From Sulfurimonas denitrificans DSM 1251 (GTDB lineage: Bacteria > Campylobacterota > Campylobacteria > Campylobacterales > Sulfurimonadaceae), in contig NC_007575.1 in NCBI RefSeq assembly GCF_000012965.1, forward strand, positions 1,612,001-1,676,000: DNA of 64,000 bases. The letters are read 5' to 3'. The notes under the pieces were generated by a model. It did no database searches. It was not told the DNA's origin and saw nothing but the letters and a program-made list of their open reading frames with translations. The position numbers and the translations under genes are program-made. Below, piece after piece: positions 1 to 15,185 of this stretch; position 1 is the stretch's first letter, and each line of letters opens with the position of its first letter.

Positions 1-269
1 ATTATGGCAACCAGATAAGACTCTTAGAGCTTATTAGCGAGTTAAGTGCGCAGGGATATACATTTTTAAAAACCACGCACTACCCTGACCATGCACTTTT
101 GATTTCAAGCCGTGTTGTCGTTATGGATGGCGGAAAAATCATAGCAGATGGTGCGCCAGCAGAGGTAATCACAAAAGAGATGATTCAAGATGTTTACTCC
201 ATAAACACAGACATTATCACACACGATTCACACAAAAGATGTGTTCCGATTTTTCAAAAAACTATATAA
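1..269 (+). CDS. ABC transporter ATP-binding protein, C-terminal end (FecE/BtuD type)
   Basis: Only the last 88 codons lie in the window, read in the frame that begins at base 3. The fragment contains the H-loop segment (TTHYPDHALL) and then the strand-turn VVVMDGGKIIADGAP, which closes ATPase domains of metal-chelate and cobalamin importers (FecE, FepC, BtuD, MolC). It would power an inner-membrane importer. The permease gene is presumably to the left, outside the window. The stop lies 17 bases before the modD start, and a binding protein follows modD, so it is probably part of the same operon. A MolC-like role in molybdate or tungstate import is inferred from these neighbours, not from the fragment itself. 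Confidence 0.85.
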   Translation, partial: YGNQIRLLELISELSAQGYTFLKTTHYPDHALLISSRVVVMDGGKIIADGAPAEVITKEMIQDVYSINTDIITHDSHKRCVPIFQKTI

Positions 270-286
270 AAACAGAGGATTTAAAA

Positions 287-1105
287 ATGGATTTACTATT
301 TGAAGATGCAGGTTATTTTGACTTAACAACATACGGGCTTGGCATTGGCGAGAAAAAGGGTGTCATGAGCTTTGCACCAAAAGCAGAGATTGTGCTTTGT
401 GGAGTAGATGAAGTTAGAACTATCTTAAATAATCTTGAGATACAACACACTTTTTTCAAAAAAAACGGTGAAAAAGTTATGGCTCAAGAGGTTATCTTAG
501 AGTGCAAAGCAGAGGCTTCAAAACTTCATAAAGCGTGGAAAATCTCTCAAAATATTTTTGAGTACATGAGCGGTATCGCAACCTATACTCACAAAATGGT
601 TACTCTAGCTAAAGAGGTAAACCCAAATATAAGCGTCTCAACTACTAGAAAAAATTTCCCTACAGCCAAAGAGTTGATGCTAAAAGCTGTCATATGCGGT
701 GGTGGAGCGCCCCATAGAATTGGGCTTTTTGACTCTATTTTGATATTTGAACAGCATCTAAACTTCTTTAGCGATAAAGCGGAGTTAGAAAAAAGCTTCA
801 AAAAATTAAAGTATGCCTTTATTGAGAAAAAGGTCGCCGTTGAAGTTGAGAGTTTTGAACAAGCGCTTTACTTTGCATCTCTAGGTGCTGACATACTTCA
901 GTGCGAAAAAATGGAGTATGAAACTCTTAAAAAGTGTATAACTTTAAAAGAGCAATATCCACACCTTTTACTCTCGGCAACTGGCGGTATAAATGAGTCA
1001 AACATTGCCGAGTTTGCAAAATGCGGAGTTGATTTTATCGTTACTTCCTCACCTTACCATGCAAAACCTCTTGATATTAAAGTCACTATAAAAGAGGCAC
1101 TATGA
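287..1105 (+). CDS. modD: ModD, quinolinate phosphoribosyltransferase-like protein of molybdenum transport loci
   Basis: A 272-residue protein of the nicotinate-nucleotide pyrophosphorylase (NadC) superfamily. Recognisable parts are the N-terminal MDLLFEDAGYFDLTT, SGIATYTHKMV in the middle, STTRKNFPTAKELMLKA, and the barrel end SATGGINESNI followed by GVDFIVTSSPYHAKP. In other bacteria ModD lies in molybdate transport operons, but its reaction is not established. I chose the ATG at 287 because AGAGGA lies 7 bases upstream and the protein then starts as family members do; a longer frame opens at 239 inside the preceding gene. The stop overlaps the next start (ATGA). Of the transport genes, this one points most directly to molybdenum or tungsten. 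Confidence 0.85.
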   Translation: MDLLFEDAGYFDLTTYGLGIGEKKGVMSFAPKAEIVLCGVDEVRTILNNLEIQHTFFKKNGEKVMAQEVILECKAEASKLHKAWKISQNIFEYMSGIATYTHKMVTLAKEVNPNISVSTTRKNFPTAKELMLKAVICGGGAPHRIGLFDSILIFEQHLNFFSDKAELEKSFKKLKYAFIEKKVAVEVESFEQALYFASLGADILQCEKMEYETLKKCITLKEQYPHLLLSATGGINESNIAEFAKCGVDFIVTSSPYHAKPLDIKVTIKEAL

Positions 1106-2076
1106 GAGTTTTAATTTTAATCTTTTTTATAGTTTTTTCTCTACATGCAAGAACTATCACCGATGATAGCGGACGAGTTGTCGTGGTTCCTGATAACATA
1201 ACCAAAATTTACGCAGCTTCCCCACCTCTTAGCATGTCTCTTTTGGCATTTAATCCTGATTTGGTTGCAGGGCTTAACTCCCCGTTTAACGAGGTTCAAA
1301 AAAAGTATGTGGGAAGTGCTTATGACAAGCCTATTGTGGGCGGTTTTATGGGACAGGGAAACACTCCAAATTTTGAGATTTTAGCCAGCGTGAAGCCTGA
1401 CGTTGCACTCATATGGACTAGGATGAGAGGGTACGAAAAGATATTGGCAAAACTTGAAAAACTTGGCATCCCTGTTTTACTTGTAAACAACGAATCCATC
1501 TATGACCTTATCACTCAATTTGAACTATTTGCAACACTAACAGGAGAGCGCACAAGAGCAGATGAGCTTATAGCATACACCAAAAAGAGTCTCTCTCTCG
1601 TGGAGCAACTCCAAGAGAGGCTCAAAAAGCAAGAACAGATACGCTACTACTTTGCACAAGGCTTAGATGGGCTTAGCAGTGAATGCGAAGGTTCTTTTCA
1701 TCTTGAGCCGTTTAAATATGCAGGAGCTAAAAACGCACTTGATTGTAAAATGAGTTCAAACTATGGCATGGAGAAGATAGCTTTTGAGACTATTCTTTTA
1801 AGCGACCCTGATGTGATTGTTGCTATGGAGAGCGTTTTTGTAGAGGAGATTGGCAAAAATCAAAGATTTAAAAGCCTCAGAGCTATAAAAGATGCAAAAC
1901 TTTTTCTCGTGCCCTCACATCCATTCAACTACATCTCAAGACCTCCCTCTTTTATGCGACTTCTTGGCATCAGATGGCTTATAGACTCTTTTTATTCATC
2001 GCTTAGAACAAAATCCTTTGAAGAAGAGAAAAAAGAGTTTGAAAAGCTCTTTTTTCCCCAGCTAAAGGAGAGTTGA
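1102..2076 (+). CDS. Periplasmic substrate-binding protein, FecB/BtuF/MolA type
   Basis: A 324-residue protein with a short signal peptide (about residues 1-16, ending LHA) and the fold of class III binding proteins for metal chelates: an N-terminal strand ITDDSGRVVVVPDNITKIYA, the segment NFEILASVKPDVALIW, a long connecting helix, and a C-terminal lobe with LSDPDVIVAMES. It delivers a ligand to the ABC importer whose ATPase ends at base 269. The family covers ferric chelates, cobalamin and, in the MolABC system, molybdate or tungstate. ModD upstream favours the last. It overlaps modD by 4 bases and precedes exbB by one base, so it sits inside the operon. Ligand specificity cannot be read from the sequence. 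Confidence 0.85.
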   Translation: MRVLILIFFIVFSLHARTITDDSGRVVVVPDNITKIYAASPPLSMSLLAFNPDLVAGLNSPFNEVQKKYVGSAYDKPIVGGFMGQGNTPNFEILASVKPDVALIWTRMRGYEKILAKLEKLGIPVLLVNNESIYDLITQFELFATLTGERTRADELIAYTKKSLSLVEQLQERLKKQEQIRYYFAQGLDGLSSECEGSFHLEPFKYAGAKNALDCKMSSNYGMEKIAFETILLSDPDVIVAMESVFVEEIGKNQRFKSLRAIKDAKLFLVPSHPFNYISRPPSFMRLLGIRWLIDSFYSSLRTKSFEEEKKEFEKLFFPQLKES

Positions 2077-2077
2077 A

Positions 2078-2518
2078 ATGCTTGTTGAGAAACTTTTAGG
2101 AGTTGCCATTATCGGGGTTGACCCAGTCTTATGGATATTGCTTTTTATGAGCGTTATCTCCTTTGGAGTGATTATGGAGAGAGCACTTGTATTTGGATAT
2201 GTTAAAAAAAGAGTTCATGAACTCTCTATGATAGAGGTGAGAATCTTACTTGAAAAAAGGTTGGGAGTACTTGCAACATTTGGAAATAACGCTCCTTTTA
2301 TTGGACTTTTTGGAACTGTTCTTGGAATCATCAACGCTTTTCACACGCTCTCAAGGGGAAGTGAATTTGGTGTAAATGCAGTTATGGGTGGCATCTCAGA
2401 AGCGCTTGTTGCAACTGCTACTGGGCTTTTTGTGGCGATTCCAAGCGTCATAGCCTACAACTACTTTGTAAGAAAAATAAAGATGATACTTCTAGACATG
2501 GGGGCAAAAGCGTCATGA
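2078..2518 (+). CDS. exbB: ExbB, proton-channel subunit of the TonB energy-transducing complex
   Basis: A 146-residue MotA/TolQ/ExbB-family protein of the short type common in Campylobacterota. It has a first membrane helix at about 16-36 (VLWILLFMSVISFGVIMERA) and the conserved segment APFIGLFGTVLGIINAFHTL leading into ISEALVATATGLFVAIPSVIAYN, which forms the second and third helices. With ExbD it uses proton flow across the inner membrane to drive TonB. The stop overlaps the exbD start, and tonB follows, giving a complete exbB-exbD-tonB set. Its place between a binding protein and two TonB-dependent receptors suggests a set dedicated to this locus. Confidence 0.93.
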   Translation: MLVEKLLGVAIIGVDPVLWILLFMSVISFGVIMERALVFGYVKKRVHELSMIEVRILLEKRLGVLATFGNNAPFIGLFGTVLGIINAFHTLSRGSEFGVNAVMGGISEALVATATGLFVAIPSVIAYNYFVRKIKMILLDMGAKAS

Positions 2519-2922
2519 AGATGGATAATGCCTATGAAGATAGCGAAATATCGGAGATAAACATGACTCCATTTGTGGATATTGTTCTTGTTATTTTAGT
2601 TATTTTCATGGCAACGGCAACTTTTGTTGCAGAGGGCAAAATAGCTATCTCGCTTCCAAAAGCTACGCAAAATGAGCAATCACTTGAGCCGACAAAACCG
2701 ATAATTATAACCATAGACAAAGAGGGAAAATTTTATTTTGAGGAGAATCTTGTAGAGATACAATCTCTTAATAATGCACTCATAAAAAATTATGATAGAG
2801 CTTCAAAGGATGGCGTTATTCTTCGCAGTGACGCAAAGACATCATTTGAGTATGTTGTAAAAGCCATCGATATCTGCAAACAAAATAGCATCTCAAAGTT
2901 TTCTATCCAGACGCAGGAGTAG
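2515..2922 (+). CDS. exbD: ExbD, TonB complex subunit
   Basis: A 135-residue inner-membrane protein with one N-terminal helix preceded by the family signature EINMTPFVDIVLVILVIF. The aspartate in FVDIV matches the essential proton-pathway aspartate of ExbD and TolR. The remaining roughly 85 residues form the periplasmic domain (ITIDKEGKFYFEE and YVVKAIDICKQ). Two ATG codons, at 2515 and 2521, are both possible starts; the first overlaps the exbB stop, as expected for translational coupling. It works with ExbB and TonB to energise the outer-membrane receptors encoded downstream. Confidence 0.93.
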   Translation: MKMDNAYEDSEISEINMTPFVDIVLVILVIFMATATFVAEGKIAISLPKATQNEQSLEPTKPIIITIDKEGKFYFEENLVEIQSLNNALIKNYDRASKDGVILRSDAKTSFEYVVKAIDICKQNSISKFSIQTQE

Positions 2923-2924
2923 TT

Positions 2925-3671
2925 ATGATAAACAACTTTTACACTAGAGCCATAATATCAGTAGCATCCACTACTCTCTTACATGCTTCAATATTTTACA
3001 CCCTAAATGAGATAGAGCCAAATATCACTCCCTCACAAAGAGTGGTGGAGATTGCATCTATTGAGAGTCTCAAAAAAGAGAAAAAAATTGCAGTAGCAGA
3101 GCAAAAACCAGAGCCCTTACCAAAGACAGTACAAGAGCCAAAACCAGTTCGAAAATTAAAACTAGAACCAGTGGTAAAAGCAGAGCCAGTAGCAAAACCA
3201 AAACATATAGTAGAGCAAAGCCCTATTCCTCTTAAAGAACCTTTGTTAGTCGCTCAAAATGAGGTAAAAAATATGGAGGTAAAAGAAGATACGAAAAATA
3301 ACGCAGATATTGAGCCAACAACGCCTATAAAAACCACTCAAAAGAGCCAAGAGGCGCAAAAGGCTTCATCCATAAAAAAGGCTAATGAGATAGAGCAGTA
3401 CCTCTTTAAAATAAGAGCAAAAATTCAAGAAAACCTAAGATACCCGCCTCTTGCAAGACGACTTAAAATTGAGGGAGAGAGTGTTGTTAGCTTTGATATA
3501 GCAAACAACGGGAGTGTAAATATCTCATCCATTGGGATAAAAAAGTCAAGCGGACATGAGAGTTTAGACAGACAAGCGATGCAAACCATTGAGGATGTTT
3601 CGCCTTTTGATGCTCCGCCAAAAGAGGTAATGTCTATAATATTACCAATTTCGTTCAATTTAAATAGATAA
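2925..3671 (+). CDS. tonB: TonB, periplasm-spanning energy transducer
   Basis: A 248-residue protein with an N-terminal membrane anchor (about 8-28), a long Pro/Lys/Glu-rich spacer with many EPK/KPE repeats (about 55-150) that would span the periplasm, and the C-terminal TonB fold from about residue 165: YPPLARRLKIEGESVVSF, then SGHESLDRQAMQTI and the closing strand. Two bases separate it from exbD. TonB contacts the TonB box of outer-membrane receptors and passes on the force generated by ExbBD. A complete tonB-exbBD set here, rather than reliance on a set elsewhere, supports a self-contained uptake locus. Confidence 0.92.
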   Translation: MINNFYTRAIISVASTTLLHASIFYTLNEIEPNITPSQRVVEIASIESLKKEKKIAVAEQKPEPLPKTVQEPKPVRKLKLEPVVKAEPVAKPKHIVEQSPIPLKEPLLVAQNEVKNMEVKEDTKNNADIEPTTPIKTTQKSQEAQKASSIKKANEIEQYLFKIRAKIQENLRYPPLARRLKIEGESVVSFDIANNGSVNISSIGIKKSSGHESLDRQAMQTIEDVSPFDAPPKEVMSIILPISFNLNR

Positions 3672-3683
3672 AGGAGATAAAAA

Positions 3684-4859
3684 ATGAGTGAATTTTTAAC
3701 AAAAAATGAAGAGAAAATAGAGAAGATTGTGAAGTTTCATAGATCTTTTGATGAGATGAGTCAAACTCAAAGACAAGCATGGCTCGAGGAGATGGGAGAT
3801 ATAAATATTGAGCATTTTTTTAAAGCAAATCAGAGAGTTTTTGATGAAGATGGCCCTAGAGAGCGAAGCATCCCAAGAAGAGATTTCTTTTTGGATGTGA
3901 TTAAAAACAGGGTAAAATCAGACCCTCTTTTACAGCCAAAAGGACACCCTGTAACGAACTATCTGCAAGAAAATATCCACATAAGAAAACTTTGCGAGAA
4001 GATAACAGATACTTTTTGCGTAGAGGAGATAGCAAGTTATGATGCAGCGCTCAATCTTTTGTATGAACTCTCTAAAATTCATACACACTACTTAAGAAAA
4101 GAGGATCAACTATTTCCATACTTAGAAAAACACAACTTTACTTATCCAAGTACAGGAATGTGGAAATTCCAAGATGAGATAAGAGCAAACTTAAAAATGG
4201 TTATAAAAGCATTTGAGAAAAATGAGCTAAATAAAGAGATGCAGACTCTTATGCGTGACGTTGTAAAAGATATTTTTGACATGACAACCAGAGAAGAGAA
4301 GATGCTACTTCCAACATCTGTAAAACTGCTCTCAAATGAGGAGTGGATAAAGATGAGAAAAGAGGAGCAAGAGATAGGTTATGTCTTCATTCAAAGCCCT
4401 CCAATGTGGCCAGAAGATGAGAGCCATAAGCCAGATATGGCATCATCTCTTGGCTCAATATTTCTCCAAGAGGGTTCTCTCTCGCAAGAGCAGTTAAATC
4501 TCTTCTTTAGTCATCTGCCTTTTGATGTAACTTTTGTAGATGAGAATGATAGAGTGGCATTTTTCAACAAAGGAAGTGAGAGAACTTTTTTAAGAAGCGC
4601 TGGTGTAATAGGCAGAGAAGTAAAGTTTTGCCACCCTCCAAAGAGTGTTGATGCAGTTTTAAAAATATTAGAAGCTTTTAAGGCAGGAACTAAAGAGAGT
4701 GCTGAGTTTTGGATAACTTTTGGTGGAAGATTGATTCACATCAGATACTTTGCACTTAGAGATAGTGAGAAAAACTATAAAGGCGTAGTTGAGATAACGC
4801 AAGATATTACCGACATAAAAAATATTGAGGGCGAGAGACGCCTTCTGGATTGGGAATAG
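3684..4859 (+). CDS. DUF438/hemerythrin-like/PAS domain protein
   Basis: A 391-residue soluble protein. The first 70 or so residues resemble the DUF438 family. The middle (about 95-215) is a hemerythrin-like four-helix region with HTHYLRKEDQLFPYLEKH, whose H-x-x-x-E and later His residues suit a di-iron site. The C terminus (about 270-385) is a PAS domain (LPFDVTFVDENDRVAFFN) that ends in GVVEITQDITDIKNIEGER. Such proteins are thought to sense oxygen, NO or redox state, although no output domain is present. A strong ribosome site (AAAGGAGA) lies 12 bases after tonB, so it is probably co-transcribed. Its role in a metal-uptake locus is unclear; local sensing of redox state is a guess. Confidence 0.75.
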   Translation: MSEFLTKNEEKIEKIVKFHRSFDEMSQTQRQAWLEEMGDINIEHFFKANQRVFDEDGPRERSIPRRDFFLDVIKNRVKSDPLLQPKGHPVTNYLQENIHIRKLCEKITDTFCVEEIASYDAALNLLYELSKIHTHYLRKEDQLFPYLEKHNFTYPSTGMWKFQDEIRANLKMVIKAFEKNELNKEMQTLMRDVVKDIFDMTTREEKMLLPTSVKLLSNEEWIKMRKEEQEIGYVFIQSPPMWPEDESHKPDMASSLGSIFLQEGSLSQEQLNLFFSHLPFDVTFVDENDRVAFFNKGSERTFLRSAGVIGREVKFCHPPKSVDAVLKILEAFKAGTKESAEFWITFGGRLIHIRYFALRDSEKNYKGVVEITQDITDIKNIEGERRLLDWE

Positions 4860-4877
4860 AGATATATTTTTATATAT

Positions 4878-4901
4878 CGTTATGTGAAAAAAGATATAAC
4901 A
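4878..4901 (+). promoter_or_regulatory. Candidate ModE-type operator
   Basis: An imperfect inverted repeat, CGTTATGT, 8 bases, then ATATAACA, lies 20 bases before the start of the methyltransferase gene. It matches in sequence and spacing the ModE box I know from E. coli mod promoters (CGTTATAT-N8-ACATAACG). It sits in the only sizeable gap between the transport operon and the receptor genes, where a repressor would act. The regulator itself is not in the window. The assignment rests on similarity by eye. Confidence 0.5.
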
Positions 4902-4920
4902 TAAAAAAGGGGTTAATAGA

Positions 4921-5571
4921 ATGGTTAAAGATAAAAATATAGAAAACAAAGAGCATAAAGGCGGATCAAATCCTCAAAGTTTTGACCGCATCGTGCGTGA
5001 GGTGTTTGCTCCAATCTATCCTGTAATAGCGCAGCAGATAAAAGAAAAAACTGGAGTGACATATGGCAGATGTTTTGATGCAGGGTGCGGCACGGGAGCA
5101 CTTGGACGGGCCATGGCAAGTATTACGGATTTACATGTAACTTTTTTTGACCAGTCGCCTGAGATGCTCTTGCTCGCTAAAGATTATGCAAAGAGTGAAA
5201 ATATTTTAGAAAAAAGTGATTTTTTAAACGGCGACATCCATAACATAGGTATAAAAGATGAGAGCATGGACATAGTCATAAGCCGTGGCTCTTCGCCGTT
5301 TTGGGATGATTGGCAAAGAGCTTATAGCGAAATACTAAGAATCTTAAAAGTCGGCGGACACGCTTACATAGGCGGAGGATTTGGCACAAAAGAGCTAAGG
5401 GAGCAGATAACCGCTCACATGAGCAAAGAGAAACCCGACTGGAGAGACTCTTTTAAAGAGCGAGTAAAAATGGAGCGAGAAGCCCTGCCACAGATACTAA
5501 ACTCACTAAACCCAACACAACACACCATCATAGACGATGAGAGCGGTTGGTGGGTTTTTATAACGAAATAA
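4921..5571 (+). CDS. Class I SAM-dependent methyltransferase
   Basis: A 216-residue protein with a Rossmann methyltransferase core: motif I CFDAGCGTGALGRAM (about 52-66), the acidic strand end VTFFDQSPEM, DFLNGDIHNI, and motif IV-like MDIVISRGSSPFWDD followed by LKVGGHAYIGGGFG. The N-terminal 45 residues look like a helical lid. The substrate is unknown; small molecules are usual for this type. It is the first gene after the candidate ModE box and lies 14 bases before a TonB-dependent receptor. A second, different methyltransferase follows the second receptor, so each receptor has one beside it. A part in making or releasing a metal chelate is possible but not shown. Confidence 0.8.
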   Translation: MVKDKNIENKEHKGGSNPQSFDRIVREVFAPIYPVIAQQIKEKTGVTYGRCFDAGCGTGALGRAMASITDLHVTFFDQSPEMLLLAKDYAKSENILEKSDFLNGDIHNIGIKDESMDIVISRGSSPFWDDWQRAYSEILRILKVGGHAYIGGGFGTKELREQITAHMSKEKPDWRDSFKERVKMEREALPQILNSLNPTQHTIIDDESGWWVFITK

Positions 5572-5585
5572 AAGGAGATTAAAAA

Positions 5586-7586
5586 ATGAAAAGTAAAATA
5601 AAACTAAGTCTTTGCCTTGTTGCAATGTTATCTACATGTAGCGTTTACGCGCAGAGCAATTATAAGCTGGAAAAAGTTAGTGTGAGAGAGAGCCAAACTC
5701 CAAGAACACTCTCTCAAAACGAGGCATTTAGCGCACCTGAGACTTCAAAGCTAACAATTGATACGCTAAGTGAGGAGGAGATAAAGATAGCCAATCCTAA
5801 AAATATATTTGAAGCTATCAACCAAACAGCAGGGGCAAATGTTCAATTTCAAGGGCGAAAAAACTCTGCCATCATAACATTTAGAGGAAGCTCAAATATA
5901 TATAGTGCTGCCGCATTTGGAGTAATTTTAGACGGTGCCCTGCTCTCGCCCATGTCCTCTTTGAGAATCCTTGAATCCCTAAGCGTTGATATTGTAGAGT
6001 CAATTGAGGTCATAAGAGATGCCAGTGCATTAACGCTTGGACCAATTGCTGGTTTTGGAACTCCAAATGGTGCTCCTACTCTAGGTTTTATCGTGATAAA
6101 AACAAAACTCCCACAAGACAATGGCGGCGCTGCAAAATTTTCTTATGAGAGTTTTGATACTAAAAAAGCAGATTTAAGCTATGGAGGCATTCATGATAAA
6201 ATCTTTTATTTAGCAAGCATAAACGGCTTGTTCACTGATGGAAGAGATGATTATAACACCGCTGAAGATAGAGGTTCGCTGTTTTTAAGAAGCGGATATG
6301 TTGGTGATGATTTCACGGCTACGCTGAGTGCCTACTACTCAAACGCAGATAAAGAGACGCAAAGAGCAACAAACAGCAACAGCATGGTTAGCGATTCTCG
6401 TTGGAAATATGAGCCAACAGAGAATGAATTTGTCTCGGCTATCTTTGAAAAAGATTTCAGTGCCAACAACAGAACTACCCTACAACTCTCCCACTCTAAA
6501 ACTCTCTGGAGTCAAGATTTTGATAGAACAAACCCATCCAAGGTAGCTGGTTTATATTTTAAAGGGACGCAAACCACGGACTCTATCGACTTACGACATG
6601 CAACAAAATTAGACAACACTATAGTAAAAATCGGTGCGCAAGCGCTCTATTATGATGCGCCAAATGGAGAGCTCTTTTATGAGGGATTTCAAAGGAAAGA
6701 GCAGATTTACGGTGCTTTTATACATGCTTCTCATGCCTTTTTGGATAATAAACTAATAGTTGATGAGTCCATAAGAGTTGATAAAAAACATACCGATTCC
6801 TCTGTTGAGAGGTATGACCCTAACTCAGTACTAGCAAGAAGCGTTACAAAACTCAACAACCAAAAACTCTCCATAATTGAAGATAAATGGGCAAAAGCTT
6901 CTATGGCTTTTTCACTTGGCGCTCTTTATAAATTTAGCGACACTCTAGAAGCTAGTGCAAGGTTTGCATATCTAACAGCAGGGAGTACCGATGATGCCAT
7001 GAGTGCAGATGGCTCTGCTATGAAAGATGAAGAGAATTACAGATATGAGTTAGGGATAAAAAAAGTAGTAAATCAATACTTTAACCCTACGCTAAATCTC
7101 TTTATGTATGACAATAAAAACATAAAATCGCCCCTGTATTTTGGAACAAATGCAAATCCATACATAGTATTTAACCAGATAAATCAAAACAGATATGGAG
7201 GAGAGTTTGGCTTTGATGGTAGAGCAGACTCACTCTACTACTCATTTAGCTACGCTTATGCAACTGCTGATGCGAAAAAAAATGAGATACCAAAACACAA
7301 TATCTCTGCTCTGATGCAAAAGAAAATCGGAGATTATGCTCTTAATATCTCTGGTAAATACCTAAGTACTTATGAGTCTAACTTTTTTACGATTGATAAA
7401 AAGTACCATGATGTAGGCGATTTTATCTCCATCAATCTCTCTGTAGATTACAACCACAAACTATTTCAAAATGATGCAAAACTCTCACTCTATAGCAGAA
7501 ATCTACTTGATGAGAACTACATGACTATCTTTGGATTTGAAGACCAAGGAAGAGTAATAGGCGCATCTTATGAGTTTAAGTTTTAG
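5586..7586 (+). CDS. TonB-dependent outer-membrane receptor 1
   Basis: A 666-residue protein with a signal peptide (1-22, ending VYA), a possible TonB box near the mature N terminus (EKVSVRE), a plug domain at about 50-175 (IFEAINQTAGANVQFQG, then ITFRGSS and SIEVIRDASA) and a long beta-barrel that ends in ...GASYEFKF with the terminal Phe typical of outer-membrane barrels. It would bind and import a scarce ligand using TonB-ExbBD, encoded upstream. The start is fixed by AAGGAG 7 bases before the ATG. The ligand cannot be read from the sequence; flanking Mop and ModD genes suggest molybdate, tungstate or a chelate of either. A ferric siderophore remains the main alternative. Confidence 0.88.
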   Translation: MKSKIKLSLCLVAMLSTCSVYAQSNYKLEKVSVRESQTPRTLSQNEAFSAPETSKLTIDTLSEEEIKIANPKNIFEAINQTAGANVQFQGRKNSAIITFRGSSNIYSAAAFGVILDGALLSPMSSLRILESLSVDIVESIEVIRDASALTLGPIAGFGTPNGAPTLGFIVIKTKLPQDNGGAAKFSYESFDTKKADLSYGGIHDKIFYLASINGLFTDGRDDYNTAEDRGSLFLRSGYVGDDFTATLSAYYSNADKETQRATNSNSMVSDSRWKYEPTENEFVSAIFEKDFSANNRTTLQLSHSKTLWSQDFDRTNPSKVAGLYFKGTQTTDSIDLRHATKLDNTIVKIGAQALYYDAPNGELFYEGFQRKEQIYGAFIHASHAFLDNKLIVDESIRVDKKHTDSSVERYDPNSVLARSVTKLNNQKLSIIEDKWAKASMAFSLGALYKFSDTLEASARFAYLTAGSTDDAMSADGSAMKDEENYRYELGIKKVVNQYFNPTLNLFMYDNKNIKSPLYFGTNANPYIVFNQINQNRYGGEFGFDGRADSLYYSFSYAYATADAKKNEIPKHNISALMQKKIGDYALNISGKYLSTYESNFFTIDKKYHDVGDFISINLSVDYNHKLFQNDAKLSLYSRNLLDENYMTIFGFEDQGRVIGASYEFKF

Positions 7587-7625
7587 AGATTTTTAAGAGA
7601 AGGAGATAACTACATCCAAAGAGTC

Positions 7626-7639
7626 GCTAAATATTTAGC
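7626..7639. promoter_or_regulatory. Perfect palindrome before the Mop gene
   Basis: GCTAAATATTTAGC is a perfect 14-base palindrome in the 86-base gap between receptor 1 and the Mop gene, 33 bases before the Mop start. It could be an operator half-related to the ModE-like box, or a small hairpin for RNA processing. No U-tract follows, so it is not a typical terminator. Confidence 0.35.
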
Positions 7640-7672
7640 CAACAGATAAAACCAAAAATATAAGGAAAAAAG

Positions 7673-8086
7673 ATGAAAACAAGTGCAAGAAATGAGTTAA
7701 GTGGAACTGTAACGGAGTTAAAGAGTGGTGGGGTGATGAGTGAAGTTGCTGTAAAAATATCTGATGATATAACTATTTGTGCGACTATCACAAATGATGC
7801 AAGAGATGCGCTAGAGCTTAAAATAGGCACTAGAGCATCTGCGCTTATAAAATCTTCGCTAGTTATCCTAAGTAAAGAGAAACTTAGAGCGACGGCTAGA
7901 AATAATATCTTAACAAAAGTTACAGAAGTTATTAAAGGTGCTGTAAATAGCGAGATAAAACTATCAGTCGGTGAAAAATCACTTTGTGCAATAGTGACAA
8001 ACGATGCAGTTGCAGACTTGAAAATAGCCGTTGGTGATGAAGTTTATGCGATATTTAAAGCTTCAAGCGTAATTTTAGTAGCTTGA
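7673..8086 (+). CDS. Tandem Mop-domain molybdate/tungstate-binding protein (molbindin-like)
   Basis: A 137-residue protein made of two Mop domains of about 68 residues each. Both repeat the pattern SxRNxLxGxVxE...GxxxSEVxxKI...ICAxITNDA...LxLxxGxxAxAxIKASSVIL (first copy about 2-66, second about 72-136). Mop domains bind molybdate or tungstate oxyanions at subunit interfaces. Stand-alone double-Mop proteins such as ModG are thought to buffer or store the oxyanion in the cytoplasm. There is no signal peptide. It lies between two TonB-dependent receptors and is the best direct clue to the locus's substrate. AAGGAAAAA precedes the ATG. Confidence 0.88.
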   Translation: MKTSARNELSGTVTELKSGGVMSEVAVKISDDITICATITNDARDALELKIGTRASALIKSSLVILSKEKLRATARNNILTKVTEVIKGAVNSEIKLSVGEKSLCAIVTNDAVADLKIAVGDEVYAIFKASSVILVA

Positions 8087-8111
8087 AACAGATTTAAAAA
8101 AGGAATAAGAG

Positions 8112-10082
8112 ATGAAAAAAAGTGTAATTGGTATATCTATAGCGACATCTATGCTCCTAGCGGAGAGTTTTACGCTTGGGCAAGTGAGTGTGTTTGAAAA
8201 TATTAAAGATATAAATCTATTTGAGCAGAGTATCTCATCTGAAGTGATTTCACAAAACAGCTCAGATACGGTCTCAGAAGCACTAGATAATATTAGCGGT
8301 GTAACCCAAGATACTCAAGGTGCTCGCACTGAATCAACACTGCACATAAGAGGTTTTGATGCAAAAAGAGTTGGAGTTTTTATAGATGGTATTCCTGTTT
8401 ATGTTCCTTATGATGGAAACTTTGATTATGCACGATTTTTAACAACAGACATTGCCTCTATTGATGTATCAAAAGGGTACTCCTCTGTAGTTTATGGAGG
8501 AGCAAATATGGGAGGTGTTGTAAATATCGTCTCAAAAAAGCCTACAAAAGAGTTTGAGGGGAGTGTTAAAGGCAAGATTGTCTTAGATTCAGATGGCAAA
8601 ATGGCAAGACATGTAGAGAGCCTAAACGCTGGTTCAAGACAAAATAACTTTTACGTGCAGCTAGGTGCTAGCTATAGCAAACAAGACCATTTTAGGCTTA
8701 GTGATGATTATGAAGCATCCCCAACGCAACCAGAAGGAGACAGACTTCGCTCTGAGGCAGAGGATAAAAAAGTAAGCTTAAAAGCTGGATATGTAGCAGA
8801 TGATGGTAGCGAGATCGCTATCTCTTATGCTAATCAACAAGGAGAAAAACAGCAGCCACCAGTGACAGATACGACTTTTGCAAAAAACAAAGATTGGGAT
8901 TGGCCATATTGGGATAAAGAGACTATCTCCATTACAGGGCAAAAAAACTTCAATTCAAGTTATGTAAAAGCCTTGGCATATTTTGATAAAAGCAAAAATT
9001 CAATTTACTCTTACGATAACGCTACTTTTAGCGCTATAACAAAAAACTGGGCGTTTAAAAGCCGATATGATGATTATAGTTACGGAGCCCGTTTAGAATA
9101 TGGGGTTGAACTTGGAGATAACTTCCTAAAAGCAGCAGCAAGCTACAAAAAAGATGTACACCGCGCTTACGATAAAAACAAAACAACAGATGTTGAATCT
9201 TTAGTTGAGAGATATGAAGACAACACCATCTCTCTTGGCTTGGAGGATGTTTACTCAATCACATCAAAGCTTGAATTTCTAGCGGGTGTGAGTTATGACA
9301 GAAAAGAAGCAGATGAGATTTATGACACAAACACCGCTTATCTGAATATGTTAGCTCTTGAAGTAGAGGACTCTTTTGCACCTCAAGCTGCTCTAATCTA
9401 CTCACTTGATGAGAGTTCAAAAGTAAAGGTGAGCATCTCAAGAAAAACATATATGCCAACCATGAAAGATAGATACTCAAGAAAATTCAACTCTTATGTG
9501 CCAAATGTAGAGCTTAAAAATGAGGCAGCTACAAACTATGAGCTTAGTTATCTAAAAAAATATGACGCGCTAACATCAAGAGTAAATCTATTTTTTACAA
9601 GAGTTGAAGATGCAATTCAAAGTGTAGTTTTTGCTTCAAATCCTGCATACAATCAAAACAAAAATGTAGGAACATTCGAGCACAGAGGCGTTGAACTGGA
9701 GCTAAATTACAAAACTGATACTCTTGAAGTTGGAGGGAACTACACATATATAAGTGTTAAAAGCAGAGGCGACAACGGTGTAGAAATCATAGATGTACCA
9801 AAACATCAACTCTTTACTTTTGCACAAATAGAGGTGGCAAAATATGTATCGCTGTATGCCAACATGAAGTTTAGAGATGGCGCTTACGAAAACAAACTAA
9901 ATGGCACTTATGTAACAAATCCAAATTTTACAACATTTGATTTAAAAGTGATTTATGAGCCAACAAAAGCCATCACAGCAGAGATTGGTGTAAAAAATTT
10001 GACAGACGAACTTGTAAGATATGACATGGCATATCCAATGGCAGGGCGAGAATATTTTGCTACAATGAACTATAAATTTTAA
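8112..10082 (+). CDS. TonB-dependent outer-membrane receptor 2
   Basis: A 656-residue receptor with a signal peptide (about 1-18), a probable TonB box just after it (LGQVSVFE), a plug at about 40-150 (ALDNISGVTQDTQGAR, LHIRGFDAKRVGVFIDGIP, SIDVSKGYSSVVYGG, GGVVNIVSKKP) and a 22-strand-type barrel that ends YFATMNYKF. The plug is more canonical than in receptor 1 and looks like vitamin B12 or siderophore receptors, so the two are not recent duplicates. It lies 25 bases after the Mop gene and 9 bases before the second methyltransferase. It is energised by the TonB system upstream; the ligand is inferred only from the neighbours. Confidence 0.9.
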   Translation: MKKSVIGISIATSMLLAESFTLGQVSVFENIKDINLFEQSISSEVISQNSSDTVSEALDNISGVTQDTQGARTESTLHIRGFDAKRVGVFIDGIPVYVPYDGNFDYARFLTTDIASIDVSKGYSSVVYGGANMGGVVNIVSKKPTKEFEGSVKGKIVLDSDGKMARHVESLNAGSRQNNFYVQLGASYSKQDHFRLSDDYEASPTQPEGDRLRSEAEDKKVSLKAGYVADDGSEIAISYANQQGEKQQPPVTDTTFAKNKDWDWPYWDKETISITGQKNFNSSYVKALAYFDKSKNSIYSYDNATFSAITKNWAFKSRYDDYSYGARLEYGVELGDNFLKAAASYKKDVHRAYDKNKTTDVESLVERYEDNTISLGLEDVYSITSKLEFLAGVSYDRKEADEIYDTNTAYLNMLALEVEDSFAPQAALIYSLDESSKVKVSISRKTYMPTMKDRYSRKFNSYVPNVELKNEAATNYELSYLKKYDALTSRVNLFFTRVEDAIQSVVFASNPAYNQNKNVGTFEHRGVELELNYKTDTLEVGGNYTYISVKSRGDNGVEIIDVPKHQLFTFAQIEVAKYVSLYANMKFRDGAYENKLNGTYVTNPNFTTFDLKVIYEPTKAITAEIGVKNLTDELVRYDMAYPMAGREYFATMNYKF

Positions 10083-10091
10083 AGGATAAAA

Positions 10092-10919
10092 ATGTTTCTA
10101 GACCCTATAGATTTTGCTTCGATGTATAAAAAACATAAAAGCAGTACTATTTTTAAAGGTAAAAAGAGTGAAGATTGGGACAAAAAATCAAAAGAGATGG
10201 CTCCTAGAATGCAGAAGTCATCTTATGTTGAGGATTTTATATCAAGAATGGATATATCTGAAGATGATACTGTTTTAGACATTGGCTGTGGTCCAGGGAC
10301 TTTAGCCATTCCTCTTGCCAAAATGGTAAAAGAGGTTGTAGCTATTGATTTTTCAGCTCAGATGCTACAGGAGCTTCAGGCTTACGCAAAAAGAGAGGGG
10401 ATTACAAATATCAAGACCCATCTTATAGGCTGGGATGATGACTGGAGTCATTTGCCACAAGTTGATATCGCTGTTGCATCAAGAAGTATGGAAGTAATAG
10501 ATATTGAAAAAGCATTGCAAAAAATGAGTTCTCAAGCGAAAAAAGCCTCTTACTTGACATATAAAACTGGCGGAAGTTTTGTAGATATGGAAATTTTAGA
10601 TTTTATAGGTAAAAAAATTATCACTAAACCAGATTTTTGGTATATACCTCTGCTGCTCTACAAAGATGGTTATTTTCCTTATATCGACTATATTCCAACA
10701 AAAGATGGAAGTGTTAAATACTCAAGCGCTGAGGAGTTTGTAACATCTCTTATCTGGAGCATTGGCTCTTTGGATGAGATTCAACAGCAAAAGGCAAGAG
10801 AGTACTATAAGTTACATGTAAAAGAGAACAACGCACCAAAACCTTCTATGTGGGCATTTATAGCATGGAGCAGCCATAAACAAGAGATGATTGGGTGCAA
10901 ACTCAGTTCATATAACTAA
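10092..10919 (+). CDS. Class I SAM-dependent methyltransferase (second of the locus)
   Basis: A 275-residue methyltransferase with a clear motif I (VLDIGCGPGTLAIPLA, about 60-75), motif II EVVAIDFSAQML, and DIAVASRSMEVID in the motif IV position. The C-terminal 110 residues have no obvious catalytic motif and may form the substrate-binding part (FWYIPLLLYKDGYFPYIDYI). It differs from the methyltransferase at 4921 in length and sequence. It follows receptor 2 by 9 bases, so it is almost certainly co-transcribed. Some relatives in Campylobacterota and Deltaproteobacteria lie next to TonB receptor genes; their substrates are not known to me. Confidence 0.78.
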   Translation: MFLDPIDFASMYKKHKSSTIFKGKKSEDWDKKSKEMAPRMQKSSYVEDFISRMDISEDDTVLDIGCGPGTLAIPLAKMVKEVVAIDFSAQMLQELQAYAKREGITNIKTHLIGWDDDWSHLPQVDIAVASRSMEVIDIEKALQKMSSQAKKASYLTYKTGGSFVDMEILDFIGKKIITKPDFWYIPLLLYKDGYFPYIDYIPTKDGSVKYSSAEEFVTSLIWSIGSLDEIQQQKAREYYKLHVKENNAPKPSMWAFIAWSSHKQEMIGCKLSSYN

Positions 10920-10966
10920 AAATATTTTACTATTTGCCGATTTGTAAACAAATTTAGGAGTTTTAT

Positions 10967-11527
10967 ATGAACACTTCATACTCACTTAACGCTTACAAAT
11001 CTCATGATTTAAATATATCGATGAAAACATCTAGTGGCGATGTCATAAAGATGGATTTTGCAAATGAGAGTTCATTCTCCATGAACTCTCAAAAAAATTC
11101 GCAAGGCTCAAAAGATGAGCTTAGTTTCTCTTCAATGCAATCTTTTAACTACTCTATAAAATCTAACGGCATAGATGAGCAGGACAAAAAGGAGATTGAA
11201 GCTTTTATGAAAATAGCTCAACCTTACATAGATAGCTTTTTAGAGGAGTTAAGCGCTGAAGCGCCCTCTTCTCCTGTTACAAAGTTGGCACATGATATAG
11301 CCTCTATATTTGAGCCAAATAAAGCAAGAGATGAAAACAGTAAAAACTACATCAAAACAAATATAGTAGAGATGTTTGACAACTCCCTACAAAAATTAAA
11401 ACTACCACAAGATTCACAAACAGCAGATGCTAATGAGATGATGGAGAAGATTTTTGAAAATGCAAAAAATCTTTTAGAAAAAACGCTCCAAGAGTTTAAT
11501 GAGTTCAATAAAAAAATATACGCTTAA
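10967..11527 (+). CDS. Hypothetical protein, Ser/Lys-rich with helical C terminus
   Basis: A 186-residue protein I do not recognise with confidence. The first 75 residues are rich in Ser, Asn and Lys (MNTSYSLNAYKSHDLNISMK, then short repeats of SFS/SMN type). The rest is predicted to be helical and acidic (QDKKEIEAFMKIAQPYIDSF, then EMMEKIFENAKNLLEKTLQEF). It has no signal peptide or membrane segment. TAGGAG lies 7 bases before the ATG. It is separated by 47 bases from the uptake locus and by 163 bases from nosL, so it may be a single-gene unit. Proteins of this look are common in Sulfurimonas-type genomes. Confidence 0.6.
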   Translation: MNTSYSLNAYKSHDLNISMKTSSGDVIKMDFANESSFSMNSQKNSQGSKDELSFSSMQSFNYSIKSNGIDEQDKKEIEAFMKIAQPYIDSFLEELSAEAPSSPVTKLAHDIASIFEPNKARDENSKNYIKTNIVEMFDNSLQKLKLPQDSQTADANEMMEKIFENAKNLLEKTLQEFNEFNKKIYA

Positions 11528-11690
11528 GAGAGTAAAAATCCCTACACTTTATTCATTAAAATTTCTTTTATGCTCTTTAGTTTAAGTAACAATACTTTTT
11601 ATATAAGAGCACTACTCCTTTTAAAACTTAACACTTACTTAACAATTATTTTGTAAGATTATACATATCATAAGAATAGGAGATATAAAA

Positions 11691-12389
11691 ATGAGTAAGT
11701 TTATTATGAGTTTTTTAGTGCTTGGCACTATGTTGTTCGGAGCTACGAGTGAGGAAAAACCTCAAAATAAAGAGATGGAGATGTTTCAAAGTGTGCCGAT
11801 GCAAAAGGCTACAATTCTTCAAAATGGCGAAACCAAGATGTATTGCCCTACATGTGGTATGACACTTCCTATGTTTTACAAAACAAATCATGCGGCAACA
11901 CATGGTGATCATACAGAGCAGTATTGCTCACTTCACTGTTTAGTTGAGACAAACGCAGAAAATAACAACTCTCTAAAAGATATCAAAGTTGTAGATACTA
12001 AGAGTCTAAAATTTATAGATGCAAAAAGCGCTCACTATGTAGTTGGAAGTAGCAAAAAAGGTACTATGAGCATGGTGAGTAAATATGCGTTTGAAAAAGC
12101 AGAGGATGCAAAAGCGTTTATATCTGAGTTTGGCGGAGAGCTCATGAATTTTGAACAAACTTATAAAGTTGCATCTATGGCTCTTGAGGGTGAGATGAAA
12201 ATGATAGCTCAAAAACAAGCTGACATGGCTAAAAATGGCGAGATGTTATATAATAAAATGTGCAAAAAAACAGATAAAAAATTTAGCTCAACAGCAGAGG
12301 CTAAAGCTTTTATAATGTCGGAGAACCTTTGTGAAGAGATGAAGGGTGTACAACTCCAAGCAGTCGGAATTTACTTACACCAAAGATAG
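11691..12389 (+). CDS. nosL: NosL-like copper-binding protein
   Basis: A 232-residue exported protein (signal peptide about 1-18, ending LFGAT). It carries the NosL signature: YCPTCGMTLPMFYKTNHAA (about 51-69), QYCSLHCLVE, and YVVGSSKKGTMS...KYAFEKAEDAKAFISEFGG. NosL binds Cu(I) and helps to mature nitrous oxide reductase. No other nos gene is near, so it may serve another cuproprotein. Met is frequent, as expected for a copper chaperone. The C-terminal 50 residues add GEMLYNKMCKK...LCEEMKGVQLQAVGIYL, which resembles a class I cytochrome c core whose CxxCH motif is missing. AGGAGA precedes the ATG. Confidence 0.85.
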   Translation: MSKFIMSFLVLGTMLFGATSEEKPQNKEMEMFQSVPMQKATILQNGETKMYCPTCGMTLPMFYKTNHAATHGDHTEQYCSLHCLVETNAENNNSLKDIKVVDTKSLKFIDAKSAHYVVGSSKKGTMSMVSKYAFEKAEDAKAFISEFGGELMNFEQTYKVASMALEGEMKMIAQKQADMAKNGEMLYNKMCKKTDKKFSSTAEAKAFIMSENLCEEMKGVQLQAVGIYLHQR

Positions 12390-12580
12390 ATATTTACAAC
12401 CTGACTTTAGAAGTAAAACGCAAACAGTTTGCACCTATGAACTGCAAACTTTAACTAAAGAGTTCACTAATGGTGAGCTCTTTGAAAAGCTCTCTAAAAA
12501 TCTGAAAAATTCAATAAAAAACTATATGCTTCAATTTTTACTACAATTAAAGTATTTTTAAGAATTATTAGCTTATTATT

Positions 12581-12604
12581 CGTTATATCAATAAAGACAT
12601 AAAG
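12581..12604 (+). promoter_or_regulatory. Weak ModE-like site in the nosL-rho gap
   Basis: CGTTATAT, 8 bases, then ACATAAAG: the first half is a perfect ModE half-site, the spacing is the same as in the box at 4878, and the second half differs from ACATAACG at one of its last three bases only. No protein gene follows closely. In AT-rich DNA this could be chance; the reason for listing it is the shared geometry with the box in the uptake locus. Confidence 0.25.
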
Positions 12605-12629
12605 AATAAAAGATAGTTAAATAACTCTT

Positions 12630-12665
12630 CAAAAGATAGCAAATTATTAACTTTGCTATCTTTTG
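12630..12665. terminator. Strong 14-bp hairpin, probable bidirectional terminator
   Basis: CAAAAGATAGCAAA (12630-12643) and its exact complement (12652-12665) flank an 8-base loop. The long perfect stem, with A-rich and T-rich arms at its base, suits a terminator between nosL and rho that acts in either direction. A second hairpin begins directly at its right arm. Confidence 0.5.
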
Positions 12666-12684
12666 AGGCGTTTGCGCCTCAAAA
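12661..12684. repeat. Second hairpin overlapping the first
   Basis: TTTTGAGGCG and CGCCTCAAAA form a perfect 10-bp stem around the tetraloop TTTG. Its left arm shares five bases with the preceding hairpin, so the two structures are mutually exclusive at the junction. This resembles attenuator or terminator/antiterminator geometry, but no leader peptide or ligand-binding domain is evident. Confidence 0.45.
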
Positions 12685-12685
12685 A

Positions 12686-12803
12686 TCTAGTGAAATTTTT
12701 TAATGTTTTGTATGCAATGATAAAAAAAGCTCTCCTCTCTTTAATCTCTTGTTATTTGCCCAAAACAAGCCTAGATACAGAGCAGACGAAAGATTTCACT
12801 AGA
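12686..12803. repeat. 11-bp inverted repeat enclosing about 96 bases
   Basis: TCTAGTGAAAT (12686-12696) and its exact complement ATTTCACTAGA (12793-12803) bracket a stretch with no credible gene; the longest frame here has no ribosome site. Together with the two hairpins on its left it fills most of the 615-base gap between nosL and rho. It could be a structured small RNA or the remains of a small non-autonomous element. Confidence 0.35.
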
Positions 12804-12882
12804 ATAGAATCAACAAATAAACTACATGTAACTTGTAAATTCAAAATCAGCTACAAAAAAATTTAAATGAGACTATATGCAC

Positions 12883-12912
12883 TTGACAATAGAACTTTTA
12901 TTAGTGTAAAAT
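12883..12912 (+). promoter_or_regulatory. Sigma70-type promoter for rho
   Basis: TTGACA (12883-12888) and TAAAAT (12907-12912) are separated by 18 bases. Transcription would start about 85 bases before the rho ATG, leaving a leader that contains the short inverted repeat TGCAC/GTGCA. Rho leaders are often autoregulated in other bacteria, and this one could be. Confidence 0.55.
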
Positions 12913-13004
12913 TGCGTCATCAAAATATTTGAAACACACTTTCCCAATGCACTATAGAAAAATATCCCGCAGTGCAAAATCTAAAAAACTAAGGTAGCCA
13001 TTTT

Positions 13005-14348
13005 ATGAGCGAAATCGATTCACAGCAGCCTCGCAAAAGCATTAACAACAAAAGCAGCGCAAAGACAAGAACACACAAACCAGTAAAAGGTGTAAGTGTT
13101 GAAGATCTTCGCATCAAGAGTATTGAAGATTTAACAGCTATGGCTGTTGAACTAAACATAGAACAACCAAATGAGCTAAAACGCCAAGACCTCATCTTTG
13201 AGATATTAAAAGCACAAACAGAACAAGGCGGATTTATCCTCTTTAGCGGTATTTTAGAGATTATGCAAGATGGTTATGGTTTTATCCGCTCTATTGACAA
13301 GAGTTTTGATGAGAGTATAAACGATGCCTATGTATCAAATACGCAAATCAAACGCTTTGCTCTGCGTAACGGAGATGTTGTCACAGGGCAAGTTAGACCT
13401 CCTAAAGAGCAAGAGAGGTACTACGCACTTATTAAGATAGAAGCCGTTAATGGCCTTCCTCCTGAAGAGAGTAAAAAAAGACCTCTCTTTGAAAACCTCA
13501 CTCCACTTTATGCAACAGAACAAATCAAACTAGAATATAGAGAAAAAGGTCTAACTGGCCGTATGATGGACCTTTTTGCTCCTATTGGAAAGGGTCAGCG
13601 TGGACTTATCGTTGCACCTCCAAGAAGTGGTAAAACAGAGCTTTTAAAAGAGATTGCTCATGGTATCACGCATAATCATCCAGAGATAGATTTGATGGTT
13701 TTACTTGTTGATGAGAGACCTGAAGAGGTAACTGACATGGAGAGAAGTGTTAAGGGTGAAGTTTATAGCTCTACTTTTGATATGCCTGCAAAAAACCATG
13801 TAAAAGTGGCTGAAATGGTTATAGAAAAAGCAAAAAGACGCGTTGAGCTAGGTAAAAACGTTGTGATTTTACTTGACTCTATCACTCGTCTTGCACGTGC
13901 TTACAACACAGTTACTCCATCAAGCGGAAAAGTCTTAAGCGGTGGTGTTGATGCAAATGCTCTTCATAAACCAAAGAGATTTTTTGGAGCTGCTCGTAAT
14001 ATAGAAAATGGTGGAAGTTTAACTATCATCGCAACTGCACTTGTTGATACAGGAAGCAGAATGGATGAAGTTATCTTTGAAGAGTTCAAAGGTACTGGTA
14101 ACTCTGAGGTAATTCTTGACCGTAAAATTGCCGATAGAAGAATCTTCCCAGCTATTGATATATTAAAATCTGGAACGAGAAAAGATGAACTTCTAATAGG
14201 TCCTGAAGTTCTACAAAAAGTATTTATTCTACGTCAAATGATTCACAAACAAGACAATGAGATAGAAGCACTCAAATTTGTTTACACAACAATGGGTAAA
14301 AAACCTACAAATGAAGAATTTTTAGAAAGTATGAATACTAACCAATAG
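13005..14348 (+). CDS. rho: Transcription termination factor Rho
   Basis: A 447-residue hexameric RNA helicase that ends transcription. A basic, Asn/Ser-rich start (1-35) is followed by the Rho N-terminal helical domain ([14 protein letters not shown]), the cold-shock-like RNA-binding domain ([16 protein letters not shown], about 80-145) and the RecA-type ATPase with Walker [11 protein letters not shown] (about 203-212), [29 protein letters not shown] (Walker B) and the arginine-finger region. Length is slightly more than E. coli Rho (419) because of the N-terminal extension. It is followed by murI after 93 bases. This is a housekeeping gene with no oddities. Confidence 0.98.
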
Positions 14349-14350
14349 CT

Positions 14351-14426
14351 ATGAATTGTTTAAATTCATTCTCGCCATTAGGCATAGCTTTAAGAAGAGA
14401 AATTTGCCAAGGAATTTACTTCCTTG
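14351..14426. other. Two small inverted repeats between rho and murI
   Basis: ATGAATT/AATTCAT (14351-14357 and 14363-14369, loop 5) follows the rho stop, and CAAGGAA/TTCCTTG (14408-14414 and 14420-14426, loop 5) precedes the murI ribosome site. Neither has a T-tract. They may be weak mRNA structures; read-through from rho into murI is possible. Confidence 0.3.
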
Positions 14427-14441
14427 ACAAAGGAGAATAAT

Positions 14442-15185
14442 ATGCGAGTTGGCGTATTTGACAGCGGAATTGGCGGACTTACAGTTGTAAAATCTCTTCT
14501 TGAGAATAAGCTCTTTGAAGAGATTATCTACTTTGGTGATACAGCTCGTGTGCCTTATGGTATAAAAGATAAATCAACTATCATACGTTACGCTATAGAG
14601 GCTGTTGAGTTTTTTAAAAACTTTGAACTTGACCTCATTATAGTTGCATGTAATACTGTGAGTGCTCACGCACTAAGCGAGATGAGGGAAGCTTCATCTT
14701 GCCCTGTAATTGGCGTTGTTGAAGCTGGTATCTTAGCGACGGCTAATGCCCTAAAAGATAAAAACTCTAATATATTAATCCTTGGAACAAAAGCTACCAT
14801 TAACTCAAAAGCTTATGAAATAGGCTTAAATGCCGAGGGCTTTAAAAATTTACAAGCAAAAGCTACTGGTCTTTTTGTACCAATAGTAGAAGAGGAGATT
14901 TATAGTGGTGAAATCTTGGATGCAACTATGAAGCACTATTTTAAAGAGATTCAAAAACCTGATGCAATTATCCTTGGTTGTACTCACTTTCCTCTAATCT
15001 CAGATGCTCTTCAAAGCTACTTCTCTAAAGAGAGCATACTAATACACTCAGGTGATGCAATAGTGGAATACTTGGAAAAAAGGTTTGAATTTAGCAAAAA
15101 ATACAAAGAGACAAAACTAGAATTTTTTGCATCAGAAAGTCCAGAAGCTCTAAAAAACATATCAAAAAAGTGGCTAAATATTTAA
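14442..15185 (+). CDS. murI: Glutamate racemase
   Basis: A 247-residue enzyme that converts L-glutamate to D-glutamate for peptidoglycan. It shows RVGVFDSGIGGLTVVKSL at the start, YFGDTARVPYGIKD, and the two catalytic cysteines in VACNTVSAHAL and ILGCTHFPLI. I chose the ATG at 14442 because AAAGGAG lies 6 bases upstream; a TTG-initiated frame 18 bases earlier has no such site. The length is normal for the family. The stop is directly followed by the kinase gene. Confidence 0.96.
   Translation: MRVGVFDSGIGGLTVVKSLLENKLFEEIIYFGDTARVPYGIKDKSTIIRYAIEAVEFFKNFELDLIIVACNTVSAHALSEMREASSCPVIGVVEAGILATANALKDKNSNILILGTKATINSKAYEIGLNAEGFKNLQAKATGLFVPIVEEEIYSGEILDATMKHYFKEIQKPDAIILGCTHFPLISDALQSYFSKESILIHSGDAIVEYLEKRFEFSKKYKETKLEFFASESPEALKNISKKWLNI

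Follow-up and report, generated by a model that had tools for sequence, protein, structure and literature searches.

The palindrome at positions 4878-4901 of the DNA analysed from Sulfurimonas denitrificans DSM 1251 (the window, 64,000 nucleotides) is, judged by its letters and its surroundings, almost certainly a binding site for the bacterium's own ModE. Directly downstream lies a series of genes encoding two methyltransferases, two TonB-dependent receptors and a molybdate/tungstate-binding protein. The explanation that best accounts for all observations together, and one that we regard as very probable, is that the site is a ModE operator, that metal-loaded ModE represses the operon, and that the genes serve the TonB-powered uptake of molybdenum or tungsten (Mo/W) across both membranes. 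The operator is a standard ModE box, and the unusual part is the presence of receptor genes inside a ModE regulon. The features of the window are as follows; gene coordinates are those of open reading frames, not of transcripts.

239-1105, + strand: ModD (TIGR01334, 254.5 bits with a cut-off of 178.9; nadC below cut-off)
1102-2076, + strand: MolA-like periplasmic binding protein (Peripla_BP_2)
2078-2518, + strand: ExbB (Pfam MotA_ExbB)
2515-2922, + strand: ExbD (Pfam ExbD)
2925-3671, + strand: TonB (Pfam TonB_C)
3684-4859, + strand: hemerythrin-PAS protein, final gene upstream of the box (Pfam PAS_10, Hemerythrin)
4878-4901, no strand: candidate ModE box (operator) of the receptor operon, CGTTATGT-N8-ATATAACA (pattern, matrix, conservation)
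4921-5571, + strand: class I SAM methyltransferase MT1, first gene past the box (Pfam Methyltransf_11)
5586-7586, + strand: TonB-dependent receptor TBDR1 (Pfam Plug)
7673-8086, + strand: Mop, double TOBE molybdate/tungstate-binding protein (TIGR00638, 118 bits, two stretches)
8112-10082, + strand: TonB-dependent receptor TBDR2 (NCBIfam TonB receptor models, below curated cut-offs)
10092-10919, + strand: second methyltransferase MT2 (Pfam Methyltransf_25)
12581-12604, no strand: further candidate ModE box (one mismatch; 26.9 bits by matrix)
12623-12807, + strand: conserved structured element beside the 12581 box (comparison with relatives; no Rfam match)

The box and its regulator

The sequence read from the window at 4878-4901 is CGTTATGTGAAAAAAGATATAACA. 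It sits between the end of the hemerythrin-PAS gene (4859) and the start of MT1 (4921), where two collinear gene blocks lie 61 bases apart, and 19 bases separate the end of the box from the ATG of MT1. The half-sites fit CGnTATAT and its inverted repeat in a 24-base frame, as in boxes of the E. coli type, and comparison with CGTTATRT-N8-AYATAACG showed one mismatch, an A in the final position where the consensus has G. The published ModE consensus ATCGNTATATA-N6-TATATANCGAT (PMC545781) occupies an identical 24-base frame. The E. coli modA box (CGTTATAT-TGTCGCCT-ACATAACG) has no mismatch to the pattern and ends 19 bases before the ATG. The site therefore shares with the E. coli modABC operator the core, the frame and the gap to the first ATG, but differs from it in the final base and in the genes that follow, which encode TonB receptors and methyltransferases and not an ABC transporter. 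Letters and coordinates had been given correctly in the original prediction, and half-site and spacing agree with both the E. coli box and the published consensus.

The genome also encodes the regulator that this prediction presupposed. A profile search found a TIGR00637 match above cut-off (104.8 bits) at genome positions 1609511-1609777, and the modE gene is a frame of 258 residues at 1609463-1610239, whose end is about 1.8 kb upstream of the window. Its full-length product has a helix-turn-helix (HTH) besides two TOBE domains, and its alignment with E. coli ModE (1o7l) covers residues 14-257 (E = 4e-31), so that the likeness to the E. coli system extends to the cognate regulator (1o7l/1b9m). 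Directly 3' of modE we found a perfect box, CGTTATGT-N8-ACATAACG, followed by genes for a FecCD-type permease and an ATPase that continue into the ModD gene where the window begins. Between this box and the permease gene there were also a 50-codon frame (locus L018, 10307-10459), with no clear relative among the loci compared, and a second, weaker ModE-like box (L018, 10388; 14.3 bits) 106 bases downstream.

Occurrence of the box in the genome and in relatives

We scanned the genome, one contig of 2,201,561 bases, with the pattern CGTTATRT-N8-AYATAACG and used the reversed pattern as a control. With at most one mismatch the pattern occurred in only four places in the 2.2 Mb, namely after modE, before modA, at 4878 and at window position 12581, and the reversed pattern had zero matches in the genome at this threshold. 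The second of these boxes lies 47 bases upstream of modA in a modA-mop-modB-modC operon, and the first leads into the permease, ATPase and ModD genes. All sites of this quality fell at modE, modA or the present cluster. The original prediction would have failed in a genome that lacks modE, or if similar sites were scattered at random with no link to Mo/W genes; both points were examined and the prediction withstood them. Two-mismatch matches at 203535, 976772 and 1154081 had no Mo gene nearby on inspection of the reading frames and were treated as background.

Taken by itself, a palindrome in AT-rich intergenic DNA might arise by chance. The window has 66% A+T, a match with up to three mismatches to this single string in 64 kb was not rare among shuffles, and with three mismatches allowed the genome held no more matches to the pattern than to its reversed control (33 vs 44), so that such weak matches are background. 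Against chance stands the weight-matrix scan that had been proposed with the original prediction. The matrix was trained on 26 boxes of other genomes, a set that excluded this genome and all methyltransferase operons. Its independence from the shape of the pattern is incomplete, because the training boxes had been chosen by the pattern. The site at 4878-4901 scored 17.7 bits, second in the window, where the best position besides this box and the one at 12581 reached 6.3 bits. The remaining three strong sites of the genome scored 24.0 to 29.8 bits, which makes 4878-4901 the weakest of the four, and no score of 17.7 bits or more appeared in four simulated genomes of equal size (8.8 Mb).

Comparison with other genomes also argues against chance. 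A box precedes the orthologous methyltransferase in four relatives (G075, G081, G069 and G159) with a gap of 18-20 bases to the ATG, and the boxes of G159 and G069 are identical to that of the window. A footprint comparison showed that the half-sites are kept across the five genomes and that the spacer is altered in G075 and G081; a TTTATATA stretch upstream of the box is also kept in the relatives. In G165, which has a rearranged cluster, the box is absent. MT1 orthologs in the relatives are 55-93% identical and TBDR1 orthologs 70-89% (G075, G081, G165, G069), TBDR2 is kept in nearly all related clusters, and MT2 is conserved together with the cluster. In 306 kb of related clusters there were 33 boxes with at most two mismatches; the reversed pattern had 0 matches, and permuted palindromes averaged 0.4.

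A further test covered 120 congeneric genomes. The 52 genomes with ModE had 58 boxes with at most one mismatch vs 4 control matches, and the 68 without ModE had 15 vs 11. Because congeneric genomes are related these counts are not fully independent; kinship inflates the number of boxes, but not the contrast between modE-positive and modE-negative genomes. Most boxes in the modE-positive genomes inspected were located before modA, mop, modD or tonB-molA-receptor genes or beside modE, while most of those in the modE-negative genomes inspected were located within reading frames, for example a ClpA-like one. Given one-mismatch sites that follow the presence of modE throughout the genus, a position kept in four other genomes and a matrix score unequalled in simulation, we consider a chance palindrome scarcely credible. 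In the same 120 genomes, those bearing TBDR1 were modE-positive in 8 of 9 cases vs 44 of the 111 others (p = 0.005). Receptor genes were found under ModE boxes in several lineages, including distant clusters and a Chlorobiaceae genome.

Several other genes were observed in these comparisons. Related Mo clusters (L048, L056, L057, L120) encoded a bacterial globin, a luciferase-like monooxygenase, a third large TonB receptor and a protein of 243 residues that matched no Pfam family (AIDDTDEIGYFTSTGEI), and related clusters also carried a TauE-like permease. In four further loci (L124, L129, L130, L135) boxes preceded genes, directly before mop or mod, whose products have 480-500 residues and a signal-like start and may be porins. 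ModE boxes in L128 and L131 had a mop gene on one side and, as judged by eye, a nifK-like gene on the other.

Proposed regulation and probable cargo of the receptor operon

We propose that a ModE dimer with molybdate (or tungstate) would occupy both half-sites just upstream of the MT1 start and would cover the expected region of transcription start. With sufficient metal the MT1-TBDR1-Mop-TBDR2-MT2 genes would be shut off, as at modA. When molybdate is scarce ModE would be released and the outer-membrane receptors made, along with the TonB-ExbBD engine and the MolABC-type importer, whose genes have in their own leader the ModE box directly behind modE. The cargo would be molybdenum (or tungsten), probably as a complex, passing through both membranes. 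We infer the overlap with a promoter from the position of the box, because a scan of the surrounding sequence found no sigma-70 consensus promoter.

This lack of a consensus promoter, together with the short distance of 61 bases between the collinear gene blocks that flank the box, is also what one would expect if ModE activated transcription from this site or formed a roadblock in the path of transcripts arriving from the upstream tonB genes, and E. coli ModE is known to activate moa (PMC2408646). The position of the box does, however, match that of the E. coli modA operator, 19 bases before the ATG, and metal-loaded ModE normally represses uptake genes, so that activation or a roadblock appears quite improbable and repression is the reading that we follow.

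According to the usual view molybdate enters via porins. The sequence suggests that the ModE box puts two receptor genes under molybdenum control, which points to a TonB-powered passage of molybdenum through the outer membrane. From the presumed shared ModE control of receptors, TonB-ExbBD and a MolABC-type importer we infer that the genes most likely form a TonB-powered Mo/W system. The Mo/W assignment stands because the cluster combines MolBC-like ABC subunits, a MolA-like protein, ModD, Mop, ExbBD-TonB and two receptors. Among PDB chains, H. influenzae HI1471 was closest to the MolB-like permease (206 bits vs 158 for FhuB). The best PDB match of the binding protein was 4pag (185.6 bits), an uncharacterised structure that is closer to this MolA-like protein than H. 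influenzae MolA is (3psa, second with 45.8 bits). The cluster resembles H. influenzae MolBC-A (HI1470-1472) in its FecCD-type permease nearest to HI1471, its ATPase and its MolA-like binding protein, the last being only remotely similar to MolA, and differs from it in the association with ModD, ExbBD-TonB, two receptors and ModE boxes. H. influenzae MolA binds molybdate and tungstate (PMC4031551).

A true ModE site could also control receptors with a different cargo, such as iron or an organosulfur compound that is useful when Mo is short. Family models, all below curated cut-offs, liken TBDR2 to haem and siderophore receptors, the family of the binding protein (Peripla_BP_2) also takes in iron and B12 ligands, and the luciferase-like monooxygenase, globin and TauE-like permease of related clusters would suit such a role. 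We nevertheless hold another cargo to be unlikely. Mop, ModD, the HI1471-like permease, the MolA-like protein and several ModE boxes occur in one cluster, no site resembling a Fur-like consensus box was found in the window or the modE region, and the pairing of box and receptor recurs in distant clusters including the Chlorobiaceae genome. The receptors would accordingly belong to Mo or W acquisition because of the HI1471-like permease, Mop, ModD, the association of TBDR1 with modE and the neighbourhoods of MT1 relatives described below. As an independent clue to the substrate, which is how the box had originally been presented, it holds in part: it does point to Mo/W via ModE, but to molybdate or tungstate and not to molybdate alone, and its independence from the gene annotation is partial, since Mo/W is already indicated by Mop, ModD and the MolBC-like ABC subunits.

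Control of Mo/W uptake by ModE would not be new among Campylobacterota, as Campylobacter jejuni reportedly takes up molybdate and tungstate by separate transporters that are subject to a ModE-like protein (Taveirne, 2009), with no TonB receptor as far as the title of that study shows. With TonB-dependent metallophore uptake of the siderophore or B12 type the cluster shares a receptor, ExbBD-TonB, a periplasmic binding protein and a BtuCD-type ABC transporter, and differs in that a molybdate sensor regulates it. Neither molybdenum nor tungsten is mentioned in a 2024 review of TonB substrates (PMC11658791). In the open literature, with most subscription papers outside our search, we found no TonB receptor for molybdate and no TonB-dependent Mo uptake; as far as we found, a ModE-controlled TonB route for molybdenum would be new to experiment.

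The second box, a structured element and the MT1 family

The 12581 box is accompanied by a conserved element (12623-12807) with three helices: one hairpin of 13 pairs, another of the form GAGGCG-N4-CGCCTC, and the long-range pairing TCTAGTGA/TCACTAGA. A search for Rfam families gave no match for window positions 1-16000 or for the element. Full-length relatives are located within the leader that follows the modE box in G075, G081, G069, G159 and G073 and lie beside a box in G188, and shorter ones are found inside tonB of Mo clusters or, in another genus, between mop-globin and mod genes. There is one per genome, at Mo loci wherever inspected. The hairpin arms, which had been picked for best pairing, pair at 11.3 of 13 positions within species vs 8.2 between species, which points to covariation. 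Alternatively, the element might be a decayed tonB start that retains palindromic codons. A short transcript with a terminator after the 12581 box was considered and dropped, since comparison with relatives revealed conservation of an element which, in some of them, falls inside tonB.

In sulfidic water molybdate turns into thiomolybdates. We tentatively consider for Campylobacterota a fuller reading, possible though less likely than not to hold in all its parts, in which a TonB-dependent Mo/W system imports a metal complex, either a molybdophore or, in sulfidic water, thiomolybdate, the MT1 family acts in ligand or metal handling, and the structured RNA provides a second control.

In methanogens, Clostridia, Chlorobi and Bacteroidales, distant MT1 relatives often adjoin MolABC or ModABC genes, and two such loci (L153, L159) have one-mismatch boxes nearby. 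On one Chlorobiaceae contig MolBC, mop, boxes and a receptor occur together, and on a Methanohalophilus contig the MT1 relative is preceded by a one-mismatch box; most MT1 relatives of Methanoculleus have no MolABC or ModABC neighbourhood. Several loci with MT1 relatives (among L142-L167) also encode a radical-SAM-like protein of about 580 residues with a cysteine-rich start, as judged by eye.

The MT1 methyltransferase family, hitherto unassigned, is now tied to molybdenum across bacteria and archaea. For the receptors, a ModE operator before conserved genes makes the guess at their substrate a precise question, and the set of boxes supplies a regulon for chemolithotrophs of sulfidic water.
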